Positions 54,069-63,658 of a DNA stretch of 64,000 nt are shown piece by piece. The stretch's first letter is position 1. Each line of letters starts with the position of its first letter. The DNA is from Pseudooctadecabacter jejudonensis. GTDB taxonomy: Bacteria > Pseudomonadota > Alphaproteobacteria > Rhodobacterales > Rhodobacteraceae. The stretch is taken from assembly GCF_900172275.1 (NCBI RefSeq), contig NZ_FWFT01000006.1:62001-126000 (forward strand). The letters are read 5' to 3'. Both the position numbers and the translations under genes were made by a program. A model generated the notes under the pieces. It saw only the letters and a program-made list of their open reading frames with translations, had not been told where the DNA came from and ran no database searches.

Positions 54069-54776
54069 ATGCGTCAAATACTCGCCAGTTTGTCTGTCGC
54101 CATCACCATGATGGGGGCCGCACCCGCGTCTGCTGAGGGGCCGGTGGTCATTGAGCTTTATACATCGCAGGGGTGTTCCAGCTGCCCGCCTGCGGATGCG
54201 CTTTTGCATGATTTGGCGGACCGCGATGACGTGATCCCATTGGCGCTGCATGTGGATTATTGGGATTATATCGGCTGGGCGGACAGCTTTGCCGATCCGC
54301 GCCACACTGTGCGACAGCAAGGATATGCTGCGGCGGCGGGGCACAATACGATCTACACGCCCCAGATGGTGATTGCAGGGCAGACGCATGTGATTGGTGC
54401 AAAGCCGATGCAGGTGGCCGATGCGATCAAGGCCCATCAAGCCCCCACTGGCGTTGCGGTTGATGCGGCCGTCGCGGGCGGTGCGTTGACAATCACCGGA
54501 ACCACCGAGCAGGCCTTGCCCGCAGGGACCACGGTCCAGGTCGTCCGTTTCAGTGCGCGCGAGACAGTGGATATCCAACGGGGCGAAAATGCGGGGCGCA
54601 CCCTCGAATATGCCAACATCGTTACCGACTGGCAGACCGTGGGCGAATGGTCCGGTGCAGACAGCCTGCAGCTGTCCATCCCCGTGCAGGGCGACGCGCC
54701 GATTGTTGTGATCGTACAGCAAGAAGGTGCCGCGAATGGCCCCGGTGCTGTTTTGGCGACGGCTGTTTTGCGCTAA
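54069..54776 (+). CDS. DUF1223 secreted thioredoxin-like protein
   Basis: A 235-residue exported protein. The signal peptide is MRQILASLSVAITMMGAAPA with cleavage after SA at about 22. The mature part begins with VVIELYTSQGCSSCPPADALLHDLA, the DUF1223 signature with a CxxC-like CSSC at about 34-37, followed by HVDYWDYIGWADSFADP. A redox role is plausible but undetermined. AAGGGA precedes the ATG. The 263-nt gap upstream, shared with acnA, shows no clear motif. Confidence 0.88.
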   Translation: MRQILASLSVAITMMGAAPASAEGPVVIELYTSQGCSSCPPADALLHDLADRDDVIPLALHVDYWDYIGWADSFADPRHTVRQQGYAAAAGHNTIYTPQMVIAGQTHVIGAKPMQVADAIKAHQAPTGVAVDAAVAGGALTITGTTEQALPAGTTVQVVRFSARETVDIQRGENAGRTLEYANIVTDWQTVGEWSGADSLQLSIPVQGDAPIVVIVQQEGAANGPGAVLATAVLR

Positions 54777-55408
54777 GGTTGACGGGCGACCCCCGTGCCG
54801 ATCATGCTGTCGCGGGTCACCAATTTTGCCAATTCATCAACAGACATGCCATCGGTGCCCGACGGTCGCGCGGGGATCACAATATATCGCATGTCGGCCG
54901 TGCTGTCGTGGACGCGCACTCTTGTGGTGTCGGGCAGGGTGACGCCAAATTCGGCCAGCACACCGCGTGGATCGCGCACTGTTCGGCTGCGATAGGCCCT
55001 CGATTTGTACCAATCGGGCGGCAGGCCCAACAGATTGCGCGGGTAACATGAACACAAGGTGCAGACGATGATATTGTGTTCATGGGCCGTATTTTCGACG
55101 GCGATCAATTTCAGCGGGCCAATGTCGAACCCCATATCCCGCGTCGCGGCGGAGGCATCTTGCATCAGGGCTGCGTGAAAGTCCGGATCTGTCCAGGCGC
55201 GCGCGACGACTTGCGCGCCATTTGCGGGGCTTCGGGCGTCCATGGTGTTGATCTGGGACGCAATCTCTTCGGGCGATGTGATGCCTTTTTCGACCAGCAA
55301 TTCGCGCACGGCGATTTCCATGGTTTGCCAGTAGCTGAGCGGGGTGTCGTCATCGGCGCGGTAGGGATGGCCGGACGGGCTAAGGGAATCGTGGTGATCA
55401 TGGGGCAT
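54773..55408 (-). CDS. nthA: Nitrile hydratase alpha-subunit homologue (cobalt type)
   Basis: A 211-residue catalytic subunit. The metal claw VCTLCSC gives Cys116, Cys119, Ser120 and Cys121; Thr in the third position of the motif is typical of cobalt enzymes (iron enzymes have Ser). The flanking CYPRNLLGLPPDWYKSRAYRSR and RDPRGVLAEFG are canonical. The enzyme would hydrate nitriles to amides; thiocyanate hydrolase gamma is a close alternative. The start overlaps the preceding ORF by 11 bp. Last of three genes that together form the whole enzyme. Confidence 0.88.
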   Translation of the reverse strand: MPHDHHDSLSPSGHPYRADDDTPLSYWQTMEIAVRELLVEKGITSPEEIASQINTMDARSPANGAQVVARAWTDPDFHAALMQDASAATRDMGFDIGPLKLIAVENTAHEHNIIVCTLCSCYPRNLLGLPPDWYKSRAYRSRTVRDPRGVLAEFGVTLPDTTRVRVHDSTADMRYIVIPARPSGTDGMSVDELAKLVTRDSMIGTGVARQP

Positions 55409-55673
55409 CGTCTGCGGGCTCCAACCAGTGATCATAAATTTCGGCGTCGAGGGTGTCGTCGGGGTTGGGCGTGTCCGGCCCCCAGATGTCACCCATGCGG
55501 AACCGCACACGGTGTAAGGGCAGGGCGGGTGCGTCGTGTCCATAGGCGAGGTCTTCGGGGTTGGGAAAGGCGCCCAGACTGCGTTCGATCACGCCGGCTT
55601 TGCCCCGCAGATAGTGCGGAGTGCGCACGTGGCCGGGCGGCATCAGGGGTTTGACGCGTACTTTTTGCATCAT
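55398..55673 (-). CDS. Nitrile hydratase beta subunit, C-terminal half as separate ORF
   Basis: A 91-residue protein equal to the SH3-like C-terminal domain of nitrile hydratase beta: HVRTPHYLRGKAGVIERSLGAFPNPEDLAYG and YRVRF-type HRVRFRMGDIWGP. It starts within the stop of the N-terminal-half gene (ATGA). Three-polypeptide enzymes of this design are known from thiocyanate hydrolase and from toyocamycin nitrile hydratase. Confidence 0.85.
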   Translation of the reverse strand: MMQKVRVKPLMPPGHVRTPHYLRGKAGVIERSLGAFPNPEDLAYGHDAPALPLHRVRFRMGDIWGPDTPNPDDTLDAEIYDHWLEPADDAP

Positions 55674-56092
55674 GGGGCCCCAGCCGCGTCGCCGTAGGTA
55701 AGGCCGCGCCTTGCGACGTCGTCCATTTTTGCGGCCAATTCAGCGGTGGTGTAGGCGCCGCCTTCGATGAGGTTCTGGTTCACCGATGCGATCCAACGTT
55801 CGTAATAGGTCATGGTTTCAAAGGCGTCTTCGCCCATGTCCTCAAGAACGCGGCGCAATCCGTCGACGGTGAAATAGCCCTTGGCTGACCCGATGATCAT
55901 CAAGGCATCAACGCGTTTTTCCCAAAGGGAGAAATCATGTTGGTCTGTGGGGACGGGTCCTGCGTCATCGCCGCCCATGTCATGCCAACGGCGCGCGGGA
56001 TTGTCGTGCCAGCGGCGCGCAGGGTCATCGTGCCAGCGGCGCGCGGGGTTTTTTGAGGGCGTGCCCTCTTGGGGGTTAGTTTTTTCAGCCAT
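55670..56092 (-). CDS. Nitrile hydratase beta subunit, N-terminal half, with octapeptide repeats
   Basis: A 140-residue protein equal to the N-terminal helical domain of nitrile hydratase beta: HDMGGDDAGPVP, FSLWEKRVDALMIIGSAKGYFTVDGLRR and YYERWIASVNQNLIEGG. Upstream of HDMGG the sequence PARRWHD is present three times in tandem (residues about 16-38). In most species beta begins near HDMGG, so the repeats are an extra extension. First gene of the three-gene set on the minus strand. This protein could alternatively be an accessory activator, but the separate C-half favours a split subunit. Confidence 0.85.
   Translation of the reverse strand: MAEKTNPQEGTPSKNPARRWHDDPARRWHDNPARRWHDMGGDDAGPVPTDQHDFSLWEKRVDALMIIGSAKGYFTVDGLRRVLEDMGEDAFETMTYYERWIASVNQNLIEGGAYTTAELAAKMDDVARRGLTYGDAAGAP
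55980..56051. repeat. 24-bp coding minisatellite
   Basis: Three units of 24 bp at 55980, 56004 and 56028, sharing GTGCCAGCGGCGCGC (unit 1 ATGCCAACGGCGCGC). Translated on the minus strand as (N/D)PARRWHD. The last unit on the minus strand precedes MGGDDAGPV. Confidence 0.9.
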
Positions 56093-56130
56093 GTCGGGAG
56101 GCTAGACCCTGAGCTGCCCCTTTGCCAAGG

Positions 56131-57186
56131 TCAGTCTTCATCCTCATCCGGCACAATCAAGGTCAGCGTGCCATCGCTCGCCGCCGCACGGATCGCGGTG
56201 ACAAGGGCGGTTTGGGCCGTTTCGCCATCCGATTGTTTGATCTTGCCCCGTTCCCCGATTTCTTCGCGCAGGTTGTCGGCCATGCGGCTGGACATGTTTT
56301 CGAGGATGAAGGTGGCGGCGGCCTCCAAATCGCCGCCTTCCTGCTTGGCAAAGCCGATTGCAGTGACAAGATCGGCCTGATCGACCTCGCGGATGGCCTT
56401 GGGCACATCCGGCACCGCCAGCCGTGCGGGAATGTCGGCAAAGGTGAAGATGGCCTTGCGCACGCCCTCTCCGAAGGTGGGATCCTCCGCCAGCAGTCCC
56501 TCAAGGATGCCATCGCGCGTGCTGGCGGAGCTGGAATTGAGGATTGCGCCGATTCTGCTTTCGGGTGTGTCGGGAAAGGCAGAGATCGAGACGCCGCAGT
56601 AGTTTTTTGCCAAACTGGCCCCGATCCGGCCAAGCGCCTGCGGTGTGACTTTGGTGGTGCGCGACATGGAAAAGGCGATGCGACGGGCGCGCGCGCCGGG
56701 CATCATGCCCAACAGCTCAGCCGCCTTTGCCGTCGTCATCTTTGACAGCAGAATCGCGGAAATCTCGGGGCTTTCGGCCTCGGTTATCGGAAGGATATCT
56801 TCGTTTTCGAGTTCGAGAACCGTTTTCCAGGGGTCGTGGCCTGCGCGGGCGGCTGCCTCTTCGCGCAGTTTGGCCACGGTGCCCGGTGAAATGCGCCCCT
56901 CAAGGGATTGCAAAGCAGCCTCAACACTGCCGGGCGCTGTGAGGGCGATGGAGGACAGCTCAGACGAGAATTCCTCAATCACTTGATTCAGCGTCTTTTT
57001 GTCGATGATGCTGAGCGCGCCGAGTTCGCGGGTCAGGCGGGCCTGCGTCGCCTCAGGCAGATCAGACAGGGGCAGATCGCCATCGTTGCGCAGTAAGAAC
57101 TGCACAACCATCGCAGCCTTTTGCGAACGTGAGATCGCGGGCAGGTTGGAGGGGGAGGCATTCGAAAGAGCAGCAGAGCCAGACAT
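56131..57186 (-). CDS. fliG: Flagellar motor switch protein FliG, isolated
   Basis: A 351-residue FliG homologue. The N-domain starts at about 20 (SRSQKAAMVVQFLL), the middle domain carries the MTTAKAAELLGMMPGARARRIAFSMS region, and the C-domain has FTFADIPARLAVPDVPKAIREVDQADLVTAIG near 245-275, where the torque-generating charged residues lie. No other flagellar gene is in the window. It lies 105 bp downstream of the HTH-less LuxR-like gene on the same strand, with a hairpin (GGGATGTGC/GCACATCCC, 57258-57285) between, so the two may be partly coupled. Confidence 0.85.
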   Translation of the reverse strand: MSGSAALSNASPSNLPAISRSQKAAMVVQFLLRNDGDLPLSDLPEATQARLTRELGALSIIDKKTLNQVIEEFSSELSSIALTAPGSVEAALQSLEGRISPGTVAKLREEAAARAGHDPWKTVLELENEDILPITEAESPEISAILLSKMTTAKAAELLGMMPGARARRIAFSMSRTTKVTPQALGRIGASLAKNYCGVSISAFPDTPESRIGAILNSSSASTRDGILEGLLAEDPTFGEGVRKAIFTFADIPARLAVPDVPKAIREVDQADLVTAIGFAKQEGGDLEAAATFILENMSSRMADNLREEIGERGKIKQSDGETAQTALVTAIRAAASDGTLTLIVPDEDED

Positions 57187-57291
57187 AAATCACCAAAGCT
57201 TGTCAATTCAGCATGGTGATAGAGGGTATCGGTAAATTGCCGATTAACGCTGAAGCGGGATGTGCCCCAAATTGCGCACATCCCCTTGGGG

Positions 57292-57780
57292 TTAGCTGGG
57301 GTGTGTCATGCGGACTGAGAGTTTGTGCAATTCGGCCCGTACCTCGGGCGTCATGCCGGTTTCGGATGCGGTGAGGCTGTGCAGATCTTGAACGTGGTCC
57401 GTCAAGGTTTGCATTTCCGCGTCCGTGTATTCCCGGTCTGGACGGGCAAAGCCCGCGATGGAACGTGATCCGCCGGCTTCAACCCCGATGGCTGTGCCAT
57501 ATTTGATCCCGAAATCTGCGGATTGTTCGTAGATTTTCAATGCGTCCTGATCCGACAGGGCGGACCACCTGATGGATCCGGTATTGGCAAACGCCCATCC
57601 CACTGTTGGGTCCGACATGATGAACCCTTTGCTGTTGTACAAATCCATCCACGCCTTGGGATAGGTCTGAAACTGGAATTCGGACGATGTCATGCGGATG
57701 TGAAACGCAATGGCAAACCCCGCGGGGGCCATGTCTTCTGCTGTTTCAATCAGATCGGTGATCTTTTCTAGATCGGCCAT
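57292..57780 (-). CDS. LuxR-type autoinducer-binding domain without HTH
   Basis: A 162-residue protein consisting only of an autoinducer-binding domain. The acyl-homoserine-lactone pocket residues of LuxR proteins are in place: Trp44, Tyr48, Asp57-Pro58 and Trp72 (YPKAWMDLYNSKGF, SDPTVGW, TGSIRWSAL). Its paralogue transcribed divergently 144 bp away shares NTGSIRWSA and ARPDREYTDAEM/ARPDREFTDDEI. The 23 residues after the domain have no helix-turn-helix. Proteins of this build could sequester signal or form inactive heterodimers with the full LuxR, as TrlR does to TraR; this is inference. Two-component or ligand-only function remains possible. Confidence 0.85.
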   Translation of the reverse strand: MADLEKITDLIETAEDMAPAGFAIAFHIRMTSSEFQFQTYPKAWMDLYNSKGFIMSDPTVGWAFANTGSIRWSALSDQDALKIYEQSADFGIKYGTAIGVEAGGSRSIAGFARPDREYTDAEMQTLTDHVQDLHSLTASETGMTPEVRAELHKLSVRMTHPS

Positions 57781-57924
57781 TTTACGCGCTCCGGTTCGCT
57801 TGACGGTTGCTTACGACTCGCTCAAGTGGGTAGAAAGTTTCACGAGGCATGGACAGCGGGAAAGTGCCCTTTTTTGTCTTTTAGACAGGTCCCGCGATAG
57901 GTTTGCAGCAGGGAAGGGGAGAGT

Positions 57925-58533
57925 TTGGGCGATCTCGCATCATCAGATGACGTCACAGCCCTCGCCCGATCAGGATACTACATCGCCCTGCGGGTCGGAT
58001 TTGCCTTTCCCATGGAAGAGGTGAACGCCCTGCCGCAGCCGTGGATCGATCACTACACCAAGTTACGTTTTATGTTGCATGATCCGGTGACACGCTGGGT
58101 CTACAGCAATACGGGATCCATCCGGTGGAGTGCGATTGACTTCGATGATCCGATGCGGGTGCTGGATCAGGCCCAAACGTTCGGTCTGCGCTACGGCGCG
58201 GCGGTGTCCTATTTTGATGGCAACGCCGATGGCCACCGATCGTTCGGGCATTTTGCGCGCCCTGACCGGGAGTTCACGGATGACGAGATTGCGGCCCTGT
58301 CGACCTACATCAAAAATCTGCATCACGCCAAAGCGCCGCCTACCAATCTGACTGCGGCCGAGCTTGAGGTGCTGGCCATGGTGCGCGACGGGCAACGCCT
58401 GAAACAGATTGCCCATGATTTGGGTGTCACCGAAGGGGCGGTGAAGCAGCGGCTGAAGAATGCCAAGTCCAAATTGGGGGCGCAGACGTCGGCGCAGGCG
58501 GCGGCGATGGTCAAACAATTCGGCCTGATCTGA
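57925..58533 (+). CDS. LuxR-family quorum-sensing regulator
   Basis: A 202-residue regulator with the N-terminal autoinducer-binding domain (Trp40, Tyr44, Asp53-Pro54, Trp68) and a C-terminal GerE-type helix-turn-helix (about 139-195: LTAAELEVLAMVRDGQRLKQIAHDLGVTEGAVKQRLKNAKSKLGA). It is short by about 35 residues at the N-terminus compared with TraR. The start is a TTG supported by GGGAAGGGGAG; no ATG is available upstream. Located 224 bp before luxI in the same direction, the classical pair arrangement. Confidence 0.92.
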   Translation: MGDLASSDDVTALARSGYYIALRVGFAFPMEEVNALPQPWIDHYTKLRFMLHDPVTRWVYSNTGSIRWSAIDFDDPMRVLDQAQTFGLRYGAAVSYFDGNADGHRSFGHFARPDREFTDDEIAALSTYIKNLHHAKAPPTNLTAAELEVLAMVRDGQRLKQIAHDLGVTEGAVKQRLKNAKSKLGAQTSAQAAAMVKQFGLI

Positions 58534-58620
58534 TTCTTTTTGGGCGATGTTTTTGGGCCGGACTGCGCCCAATATTGACACGGATTACAACCTATGCGCG
58601 AATTTTGCGCGGTGTAATGG

Positions 58621-58635
58621 TTAACGATATTTTAA
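58621..58635. promoter_or_regulatory. CtrA-type binding site upstream of luxI
   Basis: TTAACGATATTTTAA, an exact TTAA-N7-TTAA, the full CtrA consensus, within the larger near-palindrome GGTTAACGATATTTTAACC. It is 122 nt before the luxI start. CtrA controls motility and related traits in Rhodobacterales and is tied to quorum sensing there. Confidence 0.6.
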
Positions 58636-58757
58636 CCAAATTATGGGGTCATAGAGTCGCGCGGTTTGGAGGCTAAAAACCTCATTCCAAAGGGAAAATG
58701 TGGTTAATCTACCTGTGGAATGAACGCTAAATAGACTCTCCAAATAGGAGAGTGGAA

Positions 58758-59372
58758 ATGCAAAATATCACCTTTAACTTGTCTAACGTGCATCAACACG
58801 GCGGTGCGTTCTTTGATTACCTCGCCCTGCGGAAATCGTTCTTTGTCGATACCCTGAACTGGCAGATCCCGCACAACGCAGATGTGGAAATGGACCAGTA
58901 CGACAACCCCATGGCCCGCTACTGTCTGGTGCTGGACGATGAGGGCCGCGTGATGGCCGGTGCGCGTGCCATGTCCTGTGCGGCGCAATGGGGCGATCAC
59001 ACCTATATGTTGAAAGATGCCATGACCGGCAAACTGTCCACGATCCCCACCGACCTGCTGGACACGATCATCGACGGCCCAGAGGCCTGGGAATGCACGC
59101 GGTTGGTTATTTCACCCGAAGTGAAATCAATGCGGGCGCGCACGGAATGTCTGGATTTGATCGTGGGGGGGCTGATCGACATGGCCACGGCCGAGGGCGC
59201 GACCACGTTGATTTCCTTGTCGAACCTGTGGTTGCTGCGGGCGCTGAAACGTCTGGGCTATGGCGCGCAGTTGTTGGGCGAACCCTATGAGAACGATGAT
59301 GACGGCCACAAATACGCGGTCATGGCGATTGCGGCCCGTCACAAAGAGGAGGCGGACCGTCAGGTCGCCTGA
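58758..59372 (+). CDS. Acyl-homoserine-lactone synthase (LuxI family)
   Basis: A 204-residue autoinducer synthase that joins an acyl chain from acyl-ACP to S-adenosylmethionine. All invariant residues are present at LuxI-like spacing: Arg25, Phe29, Trp35, Asp46, Asp49, Arg70, Glu112 and Arg115 (LRKSFFV, EMDQYDN, GARAMS, WECTRLVI). I take the ATG at 58758, seven bases after GGAG; a GTG two codons earlier abuts the ribosome site. Acyl-chain length cannot be read from sequence. Confidence 0.95.
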   Translation: MQNITFNLSNVHQHGGAFFDYLALRKSFFVDTLNWQIPHNADVEMDQYDNPMARYCLVLDDEGRVMAGARAMSCAAQWGDHTYMLKDAMTGKLSTIPTDLLDTIIDGPEAWECTRLVISPEVKSMRARTECLDLIVGGLIDMATAEGATTLISLSNLWLLRALKRLGYGAQLLGEPYENDDDGHKYAVMAIAARHKEEADRQVA

Positions 59373-59421
59373 TCTTGCTGTTTTGCCTCCGTGGGGTGGG
59401 GACCCACGGAGGAAACGGGTG

Positions 59422-60723
59422 TTAGCCGAACACGCGTTTGAAGATCGTGTCGACGTGTTTGGTGTGGTAATCCATGTCGAATTTCTCGTTGATGCCATCG
59501 ACGCCAAGGGCTGCGACAACCTCTTCATCCGCGAGCAGTTCTTCGCGGAAATCGACGCGGTGTTCCCAGACCTTCAGCGCATTGCGTTGCACCATGGAAT
59601 AGGCGTCTTCACGGCTGACACCAGCCTGTGTCAGGGCGAGAAGCACCCGCTGAGACATCACAAGGCCCGGGAATTTGTTCATATTATCCAGCATGTTGTC
59701 GGGGAAGATCAACATCTTGTCGACAACGCCCGTCAGACGGTTGAGCGCAAAATCAAGCGTCACTGTCGCGTCAGGCCCGATGCCACGTTCGACAGAGGAA
59801 TGCGAAATATCGCGTTCGTGCCAGAGGGCGACGTTTTCCATAGCCGGAATGACCGTCATGCGCACCAGACGCGCCAGACCGGTGAGGTTTTCGGTCAGCA
59901 CCGGGTTTTTCTTGTGCGGCATCGCGGAGGAGCCTTTTTGGCCCATTGAGAAAAACTCCGCCCCCTCAAGGACTTCGGTGCGCTGCATGTGACGGATTTC
60001 AATGGCGACGTTTTCGATGGACGACGCGATGACACCCAGCACGGCAAAGAACATGGCGTGACGGTCACGGGGGATGACTTGGGTGCTGATCGGTTCGGGG
60101 TGCAGGCCCAGTTTTTCGCAGACATGCTCCTCCACGGCGGGGTCGATGTTGGCGAAGGTGCCCACGGCGCCGGAGATGGCACCGGTGGCAATCTCGTCCC
60201 GCGCGGCGACCATGCGGGCGCGGTTGCGATCCATTTCGGCGTAAAAGCGGGCAAACGTCAGACCCATGGTGGTGGGTTCGGCATGGATGCCATGGCTGCG
60301 GCCCACACGGACGGTCATCTTGTGTTCCATCGCGCGCTTTTTCAAAGCGGCCAGCAGGTTATCCAGATCTTCGATCAGGATGTCGGCGGCGCGGACCAGT
60401 TGCACGTTCAGACAGGTGTCCAGGACGTCGGACGACGTCATGCCTTGGTGGACGAAGCGCGCCTCTTCGGAGCCTACGTGTTCGGCCAGATGGGTGAGGA
60501 AGGCGATCACGTCGTGTTTGGTCACGGCCTCAATCTCATCAATGCGGGCCACGTCGAATTCAACGTCGCGGGCCTTCCAGACGGCGTCCGCGTTTTCGCG
60601 GGGGATGACGCCGAGGTCGGCCATGGCGTCGCAGGCGTGGGCCTCGATCTCATACCAGATGCGGAATTTTGTGGCGGGCTCCCAGATCTGTGTCATGGCG
60701 GGGCGGGCGTAGCGAGGAATCAT
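59422..60723 (-). CDS. purB: Adenylosuccinate lyase
   Basis: A 433-residue enzyme of the fumarase/aspartase superfamily acting twice in purine synthesis. The signature GSSAMPHKKNPV is near residue 265, with the catalytic Ser in the flexible loop; TSSDVLDTCLNVQL near 85 and RSHGIHAEPTT near 140 supply active-site His residues. ATG at 60723 gives the standard N-terminus MIPRYARP. Stands alone. Confidence 0.96.
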   Translation of the reverse strand: MIPRYARPAMTQIWEPATKFRIWYEIEAHACDAMADLGVIPRENADAVWKARDVEFDVARIDEIEAVTKHDVIAFLTHLAEHVGSEEARFVHQGMTSSDVLDTCLNVQLVRAADILIEDLDNLLAALKKRAMEHKMTVRVGRSHGIHAEPTTMGLTFARFYAEMDRNRARMVAARDEIATGAISGAVGTFANIDPAVEEHVCEKLGLHPEPISTQVIPRDRHAMFFAVLGVIASSIENVAIEIRHMQRTEVLEGAEFFSMGQKGSSAMPHKKNPVLTENLTGLARLVRMTVIPAMENVALWHERDISHSSVERGIGPDATVTLDFALNRLTGVVDKMLIFPDNMLDNMNKFPGLVMSQRVLLALTQAGVSREDAYSMVQRNALKVWEHRVDFREELLADEEVVAALGVDGINEKFDMDYHTKHVDTIFKRVFG

Positions 60724-60806
60724 GGGTAAATGGCCTTTTGTGACGTGCAATCAGGGTTCGCTGCGTCATAAGCTGATGACGGGGTGAGAACAACAGGGGC
60801 GTTGAG

Positions 60807-62449: not shown

Positions 62450-63658
62450 CTATGCCAATTTCGTCTCAATCCGGTTGCTGCGCTCAAGGGATTGGTGGAC
62501 GGGGCAGCGGTCGGCGATTTCCAGCAGGCGGGCCCGTTGGGCGTCGTCGAGATCACCGGTGAGGTGGATCGTGCGGGTGAAGTTGTCGATCTTGGATTTG
62601 GTTTCGGTGCCGGCGTCTTGTCCGTGGACTTTGTCATGTGTCACATCGACCAAAACATGGGTCAGCGGCCAGCCTTTGCGGCGCGCATACATGCGGATGG
62701 TCATGGAGGTACAGGCCCCGAGACCTGCGGATAGAAAGCCATAGGGCGTGAGGCCTTTGTTGGTGCCGCCGTAGGCCGCCGGTTCGTCCGCGAGGACGTG
62801 GTGGGGGCCTGATTGGATGTCTTGCAGAAAGCCTGAGGCGTCGGCCTCGGACACCCGTAGCACGCCTTCGGGGATGCCGATGGGGGGGGCGGGGCGGTTC
62901 AGGTCAACGTATTTGGTGGCCCAGCTGGCGATCATATTGGCCACGTATTCGGCGTCTTGCGCACGTGTGAGCAGGTGATCGGCGTCATCGAGGGTGATGA
63001 AGCTTTTGGGGTGTTTGGCGGCCAAGAAAATCTCGGACGCGTTGTCGATGCTGACTGTTGCATCCCGCGGGGCGTGCAGGACCAGCAGCGCGGCATCCAA
63101 TTTGGCGATGGCGGGCGTCAGCTGGCCTTTGGCGACGTCTTCCAGAAAGTCGTTGGAGATGCGGAAGGGGCGACCGCCCAGCGTAACCTCGGCCACGCCG
63201 TCTCGGATGATGTCGGGCAGGCTGTCGGCGAAGTTGTGGGTGACGTGTTCGGGGTCAAAGGGCGCGCCGATGGTCACGACGCCTTTGATGGACGGCAAAT
63301 CAGGCGCTGCCTTGAGCACGGCGGCCCCGCCCAGACTATGACCGATCAGCAGGGAGGGGGTCATGCCACGTTTGTCCAACTCTGCCGCGGCGGCCGAGAG
63401 GTCAGCGACATTGGTGGTGAAGTTCGTATTCTCGAACTCGCCTTCCGAGTGGCCCAGGCCGGTGAAATCGAACCGCAGCACCGCGATGCCCATGGCCGCC
63501 AGTCGGCCCGCGATGCGGCGGGCGGCGGGGATGTCTTTGGAACAGGTAAAGCAGTGCGCAAAGAGGGCCGTGGCCAGATGCGGCCCATCGGGCAGATCAA
63601 GACGGGCGGCGAGTTGTTGGCCATCGTGGCCTGGGAAGGTGAAACGTGTGGTGGGCAT
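62450..63658 (-). CDS. Alpha/beta hydrolase-OsmC fusion protein
   Basis: A 402-residue two-domain protein. The N-terminal alpha/beta hydrolase (1-250) has GHSLGG with nucleophile Ser108, Asp199 and His228. The C-terminal OsmC-like domain (about 265-400) has the peroxidatic Cys316 in GLGACTSMT and the resolving Cys385 in CPVHQSL. OsmC proteins reduce organic hydroperoxides; the hydrolase may release them from esters (inference). This fusion is a known architecture. It is monocistronic. Confidence 0.93.

Follow-up and report, generated by a model that had tools for sequence, protein, structure and literature searches.

A 64-kb stretch of the genome of Pseudooctadecabacter jejudonensis (contig NZ_FWFT01000006.1, positions 62,001 to 126,000; hereafter the window) probably encodes a two-part receptor for acyl-homoserine lactone (AHL) of the kind described for CerN and CerM of Cereibacter sphaeroides. 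The receptor would consist of a LuxR-type protein without a helix-turn-helix (HTH) domain and a full-length partner LuxR, encoded back to back and followed by the AHL synthase gene luxI. By analogy with CerN and CerM, the HTH-less protein is probably a signal sensor that frees its DNA-binding partner rather than a simple brake on it. The locus type was tabulated in 2013 (PMC3824088), and its gene for an autoinducer binding domain (ABD) alone was listed in 2015 (PMC4338825). New here are the occurrence of the pair in 59 or more of the 395 genomes of the family and its persistence without luxI, the loss in most partner LuxRs of the tyrosine corresponding to TraR Tyr53, and the co-variation of the HTH-less protein with LuxI.

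A divergent pair of receptor genes

The HTH-less gene (57292..57780, minus strand) encodes a protein of 162 aa that matches Pfam family PF03472 (Autoind_bind, E=5e-16), with no GerE domain and no second Pfam match up to E=1. Across a divergent intergenic region of 144 bp (57781..57924) lies the gene for the partner LuxR (57925..58533, plus strand; 202 aa, PF03472 and PF00196, GerE), whose TTG start sits behind AAGGGGA. It is followed by luxI (58758..59372, plus strand; PF00765, Autoind_synth, E=5e-15), for which alignment with relatives favors a start at ATG 58758 over GTG 58752. The flanking genes are fliG (56131..57186, minus strand; PF01706, PF14841, PF14842), which lies 105 bp downstream of the HTH-less gene on the same strand, and, after luxI, purB for adenylosuccinate lyase (59422..60750, minus strand; PF00206, PF10397). 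The initial annotation had placed a minus-strand HTH-less domain of this length back to back with a complete LuxR and then luxI; the gene positions, the adjacency and the divergent orientation are confirmed. Aligned over 143 aa, the two receptors share 36% identity (E=3e-34), and they account for two of the four autoinducer-binding domains in the 3.4-Mb host genome. The AlphaFold2 model of the HTH-less protein has a confident ligand-domain fold (pLDDT 93.5) with an extra helix at its end, and its Foldseek matches are to TraR, RhlR, LasR, QscR and SdiA, with query TM-scores of 0.50-0.62 among the matches shown.

When named genomes were scanned with the partner LuxR, the best 80 of 186 relatives were kept (the 80 named loci), a sample biased towards window-like loci. 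All 80 carry an HTH-less open reading frame (ORF) divergent from luxR (79 by script; L127, whose open frame runs on, by eye), under record titles that include Octadecabacter, Yoonia, Loktanella, Salibaculum, Marivivens, Limimaricola, Flavimaricola and Roseisalinus. Within the stretch examined, luxI is found at 76, fliG at 75 and purB at 77 of them; luxI is absent from L126 and L175, where the gap between luxR and purB is just 60 and 307 bp, and L137 and L144 stop at contig ends. Within the genus, 15 of 19 genomes, the window's own included, have the HTH-less gene intact. In G014 (L019; L044 6815-10039) the gene has an in-frame TAG, and luxI is broken and lies about 1.4 kb further from luxR, whose frame is open; in G012 just a fragment of the gene is present, at a contig end, and the search for the HTH-less gene gave no match in G004 and G007 (74% and 88% complete). 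The match in G034 (L041) contains a TGA. Of the matches listed in that search, just two, both weak, lie outside the family (G064, G098).

In the reverse search, an alignment of the HTH-less proteins finds some match in 313 of 395 genomes of the family Rhodobacteraceae, full-length LuxRs counted too, among the matches listed. Retrieval and classification of 60 of the listed places, plus the earlier ones, place the HTH-less protein at 61 loci or more in at least 59 of the 395 genomes, the window included. These counts, with the 80 named loci, answer a check that the initial annotation had named, conservation in relatives. LuxR lies within 2.5 kb at 60 of the 61 loci; 56 of the 61 are divergent (two of these, L086 and L040, judged by eye and the other 54 by script) and four are on the same strand (L106-L109). 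The sole HTH-less protein with no LuxR inside that distance is at L120 (5013-5552). luxI is missing at nine of the 61, of which L065 is at a contig end, and a LuxI profile run on all nine stretches gave no match; the receptor pair without luxI is seen at eight of the 61 loci away from contig ends, and again at L126 and L175. G024 has, besides its fliG-purB locus (L036), a second HTH-less/LuxR pair (L037 6211-7433) with no luxI in the 13.5-kb stretch.

Common as it is beside the named loci, fliG is found at only 25 of the 61 loci from the reverse search. A CtrA-type box (TTAA-N7-TTAA, which we take to be the CtrA consensus) is present in none of 74 regions upstream of fliG. The receptor pair, not fliG, is therefore the constant unit. 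The link to motility that the initial annotation had seen in the position of fliG is not supported.

A decaying luxR pseudogene, to which the TAG and broken luxI of G014 and the TGA of the G034 match might point, is hardly credible. The protein measures 156-180 aa at all 80 named loci, the 156-aa copy (L200) being truncated where its 3' end runs into a contig edge, and an HTH profile built from partner LuxRs has no match in any of the six frames of 57100-57800 (best E=0.36, as against 6e-43 for a control LuxR). The ratio of nonsynonymous to synonymous substitution rates (dN/dS) was compared in 27 pairs, 13 of which, with identity below 0.70 and ratios as high as 0.69, were too diverged to be used. 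In the other 14, all pairs of relatives with at least 70% identity and none of them including the window itself, the ratio is 0.017-0.284 for the HTH-less protein, which points to purifying selection, and 0.019-0.104 for the partner ligand domain; the HTH-less protein is thus the faster-evolving of the two. With no HTH remnant, a conserved length and purifying selection, the pseudogene is rejected, and with it the frameshift objection that the initial annotation had raised.

Probable kinship with CerN and CerM

CerN is an HTH-less LuxR homologue of C. sphaeroides whose partner is CerM (PMC11655674, 2024). According to that report, CerM needs no AHL to bind DNA, and its hold on DNA is weakened by CerN, which attaches to it in the presence of AHL; CerM is also recovered with CerN in pull-downs that contain AHL. 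Mutants in cerN and cerI lose CtrA and swimming, loss of cerM restores swimming to both, and the output through CtrA is indirect (PMC11655674). Like the window, this system has an HTH-less ABD protein beside a full LuxR (31% identity between CerN and CerM, 36% in the window pair). It differs in that a separate cerR-cerI follows the pair, whereas the window has its own, different luxI, and fliG and purB flank the pair. The trailing cerR-cerI is a neighbourhood trait of one species and no defining feature of a CerN/CerM-type pair.

One of the loci compared, L110 (genome G109), has the published order cerN-cerM-cerR-cerI with a divergent receptor pair, and in the tree both of its receptors fall in the same two groups as those of the window. 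At the position of TraR Trp57, its LuxR is the only one of 95 partner LuxRs to have Phe, and the window LuxR has Trp; CerM carries W57F (PMC11655674). Since each window receptor groups with its L110 counterpart, and L110 has the cer gene order and this unique Phe, the window pair appears to be kin of CerN and CerM.

The domain set behind these comparisons was reduced at 85% identity to 113 HTH-less, 95 partner LuxR and 18 other LuxR sequences. In a careful tree of 61 rows, one branch (100/99) sets the partner LuxRs apart, and another, with 97/96 when the far outgroup row is left uncounted, separates the HTH-less proteins from both remaining groups; the other LuxRs require two changes. A quick tree of 93 rows recovers these groups, with support of 78 and 89. 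Read as unrooted, the best tree has partner and other LuxRs on one side (97/96), and approximately unbiased (AU) tests reject neither a grouping of HTH-less proteins with partners (p 0.137) nor one with the other LuxRs (p 0.425). An origin of the HTH-less gene by local duplication of this luxR and loss of the HTH, as put forward in the initial annotation, is thus neither favored nor rejected. Family-wide, the mean identity of the HTH-less proteins is 38.7% to a third LuxR lineage and 35.4% to the partners; the HTH-less protein of the window has 37.3% identity to its own partner and a mean of 36.7% to the third lineage, and the identities favor neither lineage strongly as the nearest. This third lineage, presumably of GtaR/LuxR1 type, is found elsewhere in the family with luxR closely followed by luxI; it belongs to the same receptor family but is full length. 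The two receptor lineages of the pair are separate, and their split would therefore predate the divergence of the genera named above.

Pairing of a truncated LuxR-type protein with a full-length one is also described for TrlR and TraR of Agrobacterium. TrlR is a copy 88% identical to TraR that blocks the AHL-activated protein (PMC11655674), whereas the window pair, at 36% identity, belongs to old separate lineages, and the proposal in the initial annotation of a TrlR-like duplicate is not upheld. The segments NTGSIRWSA and ARPDRE, which had been taken as distinctive of the two receptors, are both real in this genome, but the first is of a general type, with TG..RWS in 41 of 113 HTH-less, 38 of 95 partner and 9 of 18 other LuxR domains. 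Both exact strings are rare and, for whatever weight that has, limited to HTH-less and partner domains (NTGSIRWS in 2/113, 3/95 and 0/18, respectively; ARPDRE in 11/113, 3/95 and 0/18).

The window locus also corresponds to a type recorded in roseobacters. Topology D of Cude and Buchan (PMC3824088, 2013) comprises fliG, two PF03472 genes, luxI and adenylosuccinate lyase in six genomes, two of them Octadecabacter; luxR genes were selected there by PF03472, with two listed per locus. The window has this order, fliG - luxR(s) - luxI - adenylosuccinate lyase. In LuxR solo group 4 of a 2015 survey (PMC4338825), which unlike the window takes in loci without luxI, an 'abd, autoinducer binding domain protein' stands between fliG and luxR, and ABD-only proteins are described as often near LuxRs. 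The parts of the two papers covered here give for topology D and group 4 neither a function nor a link to CerN/CerM, and no paper tying either to CerN/CerM was found in the open-licence literature.

Signal-binding residues and candidate control elements

The HTH-less protein of the window keeps all six of the TraR residues Trp57, Tyr61, Asp70, Pro71, Trp85 and Gly113 (by spacing; Gly113 by alignment only). Tyr53 of TraR, which a review names as essential for ligand binding (PMC9654057), is matched by spacing to the position four residues ahead of Trp57. This position is Tyr in 109 of 113 HTH-less domains (Phe in four) and in 16 of 18 other LuxRs (Phe in two). Among the 95 partner LuxRs it is Leu in 74, Phe in 14, Met in three and Tyr in only four; the window partner has Leu36.

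Co-variation was followed in 62 non-redundant loci, drawn from the 68 of the 80 with all five genes. The raw distance correlations are 0.74 for HTH-less/LuxI, 0.82 for HTH-less/LuxR and 0.61 for LuxR/LuxI. The partial correlations given PurB and FliG are 0.41 for HTH-less/LuxI (0/500 permutations), 0.31 for HTH-less/LuxR (0/500) and 0.06 for LuxR/LuxI (87/500). After correction for the flanking genes it is the HTH-less protein, not LuxR, that co-varies with LuxI, which is a hint only.

Under a CerN/CerM-type mechanism, the HTH-less protein would bind AHL from the neighbouring LuxI, and the full LuxR would bind DNA with little or no AHL. Once loaded with AHL, the HTH-less protein would pair with LuxR through the ligand-binding domains and take it off DNA, and this release may turn on the CtrA pathway and motility with it. 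The initial annotation is supported to the extent that the HTH-less receptor is conserved and probably works as a partner of the adjoining LuxR. It is very improbable that the HTH-less protein merely soaks up signal with no protein partner. Its intact pocket residues and confident ligand-domain fold would suit such a sponge, which however needs no linkage to luxR; the linkage is kept at all but one of the 61 loci, those free of luxI included, and the pull-down of CerM by CerN depends on AHL (PMC11655674). A different target, for example the adjacent flagellar switch protein, with luxR a mere neighbour, is quite improbable. The adjacency of fliG at the named loci and its position in the window speak for it, as does the tracking of FliG by the HTH-less distances (partial correlation 0.74), though those of LuxR track FliG too (0.77), and fliG accompanies far fewer of the HTH-less loci than LuxR does (25 vs 60 of 61).

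Upstream of luxI lies TTAACGATATTTTAA (58621..58635), a CtrA-type box TTAA-N7-TTAA in single copy in the window. Such a box is found upstream of luxI at 18 of 76 loci, where mononucleotide shuffles give an expectation of 0.45, and the 18 are mostly of the Octadecabacter group and Salibaculum. The luxI2/R2 genes of D. shibae are reported with predicted CtrA sites (PMC6473078). A GTTAA at 58703..58707 (plus strand, -55 from the luxI start) is a candidate CtrA half-site or -35 region; among 111 distinct luxI upstream regions, 47 have TTAAC or GTTAA between -75 and -40, most often at -54 to -56 (shuffled mean 8.8, maximum 15). In the proposed circuit, CtrA at TTAA-N7-TTAA would raise luxI and so form a positive loop.

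A predicted RNA hairpin, ACUCUCC-AAAUA-GGAGAGU (58735..58753, plus strand; fold -11 kcal/mol, z -4.4), covers the luxI Shine-Dalgarno sequence and may gate translation. The survey of relatives was unselected except for GGAG, which is present in 85 of 135 upstream regions (63 distinct sequences) and absent from 50, some through a misassigned luxI start. At least seven pairs before the second mismatch are formed in 36 of the 63, against 0.9 (maximum 4) with the 5' arm shuffled. In the 46 of these sequences with at least five pairs, a choice that favors structure, 26 cells show compensatory change, altered on both sides of the stem, compared with 11.1 when shuffled and at most 13 when slid. The hairpin pattern up to the ATG occurs once each in 14 of the 19 genus genomes and in none of 42 others, the reversed control gives none, and a shorter stem pattern is exact at two places in the window's own genome. 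Rfam gave no match to 56000-60800 at E up to 1, and none of the papers listed in a literature search dealt with such a hairpin over a luxI ribosome-binding site.

In the divergent intergenic region, the perfect 13-bp palindrome TGTCTTTTAGACA (57875..57887; single copy in the window) is a possible operator. Only its right half, (A/G)ACAG, recurs: of 15 close relatives (L122-L135, L140), eight have it between -47 and -40 relative to the assigned luxR start. The strict dyad TGTCT-N2-5-AGACA is found at 0 of the 80 named loci. Just upstream of the HTH-less gene, at 57795-57810, a short element is kept in close relatives (CTCGCTTT..GGTTGC, plus strand; TTCGCTTGACGGTTGC in the window).

Farther from the pair, nitrile-hydratase genes lie downstream of fliG (54773-56092); two genes encode the N- and C-terminal parts of the beta chain separately, as in thiocyanate hydrolases. 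The N-terminal beta-chain gene has 2.8 copies of a 24-bp repeat encoding PARRWHD (55983-56049). A single ORF at 62450-63658 combines an alpha/beta hydrolase with an OsmC-like domain.

Weighing the two-part receptor

Several observations weigh against a pair of the CerN/CerM kind. The window partner LuxR also retains Trp57, Tyr61, Asp70, Pro71, Trp85 and Gly113, in line with the pocket residues that the initial annotation had found common to both receptors, and because of these six residues it may still bind AHL. The W57F of CerM is common neither to the window nor to the remaining partner LuxRs. The published CerM motif TNT(N5)AAGACA(N2)T is not enriched in divergent intergenic regions (mean 6.37 vs 6.33 shuffled); the single published CerM site scores 9.63 in intergenic regions vs 9.03 shuffled, a difference inflated by related sequences. 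When the far outgroup is counted, the best tree breaks the HTH-less grouping, and a tree that restores it is just 0.6 log units worse (p-AU 0.40). The HTH-less protein of L110 is long-branched and its placement relies on the branch that leaves the far outgroup aside; the species is itself inferred, as C. sphaeroides or very near. The synthase beside the L110 pair is only 27% identical to the window LuxI, so the signal and the circuit differ from those of the cer system. Co-variation is weak and a hint at best, because both receptors correlate most, and far more strongly, with FliG. Finally, the CtrA-type box is found at 5 and the hairpin at 2 of 27 loci titled Yoonia or Loktanella, and both elements are thus clade-limited.

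The partner's intact pocket and the absent CerM motif keep alive the model of the initial annotation, a built-in brake of TrlR type. In this dominant-negative model, luxI is driven by AHL-activated LuxR, which the HTH-less protein ties up in inactive heterodimers, so that the quorum threshold rises. luxR lies directly upstream of luxI, and TrlR provides a precedent (PMC13043044, PMC11655674). The model is nevertheless unlikely: the pair survives at loci without luxI, the position of TraR Tyr53 is substituted in 91 of 95 partner LuxRs, LuxR/LuxI co-variation is not above background, and the characterised pair that groups with both lineages has the opposite sign (PMC11655674). Because the locus fits CerN/CerM, where CerN with AHL antagonises a LuxR that binds DNA free of AHL, the brake probably has the wrong sign; in that system, deletion of cerN acts like deletion of the synthase (PMC11655674). 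For the window, we infer the same sign, action of the pair in the manner of CerN/CerM, and control of luxI by CtrA and the hairpin.

A wider reading, which we hold tentatively, is that the AHL receptor of Rhodobacteraceae may be split over an HTH-less signal subunit and a LuxR DNA-binding subunit that has largely given up signal binding. The 'LuxR/LuxI pairs' of such loci would then be misassigned, with the HTH-less protein the true cognate receptor of LuxI, and in the Octadecabacter group the loop might be closed by CtrA and the hairpin at luxI. The hairpin would be a separate control of signal synthesis, and one that is directly testable. The usual reading of quorum-sensing circuits in marine roseobacters assigns a single LuxR to each LuxI; should sensing lie with the HTH-less protein instead, gene annotation, work on AHL specificity and knock-outs at such loci would have addressed the wrong receptor. 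The C. sphaeroides case would then be a mechanism common to much of the family, linking cell density to CtrA and motility.

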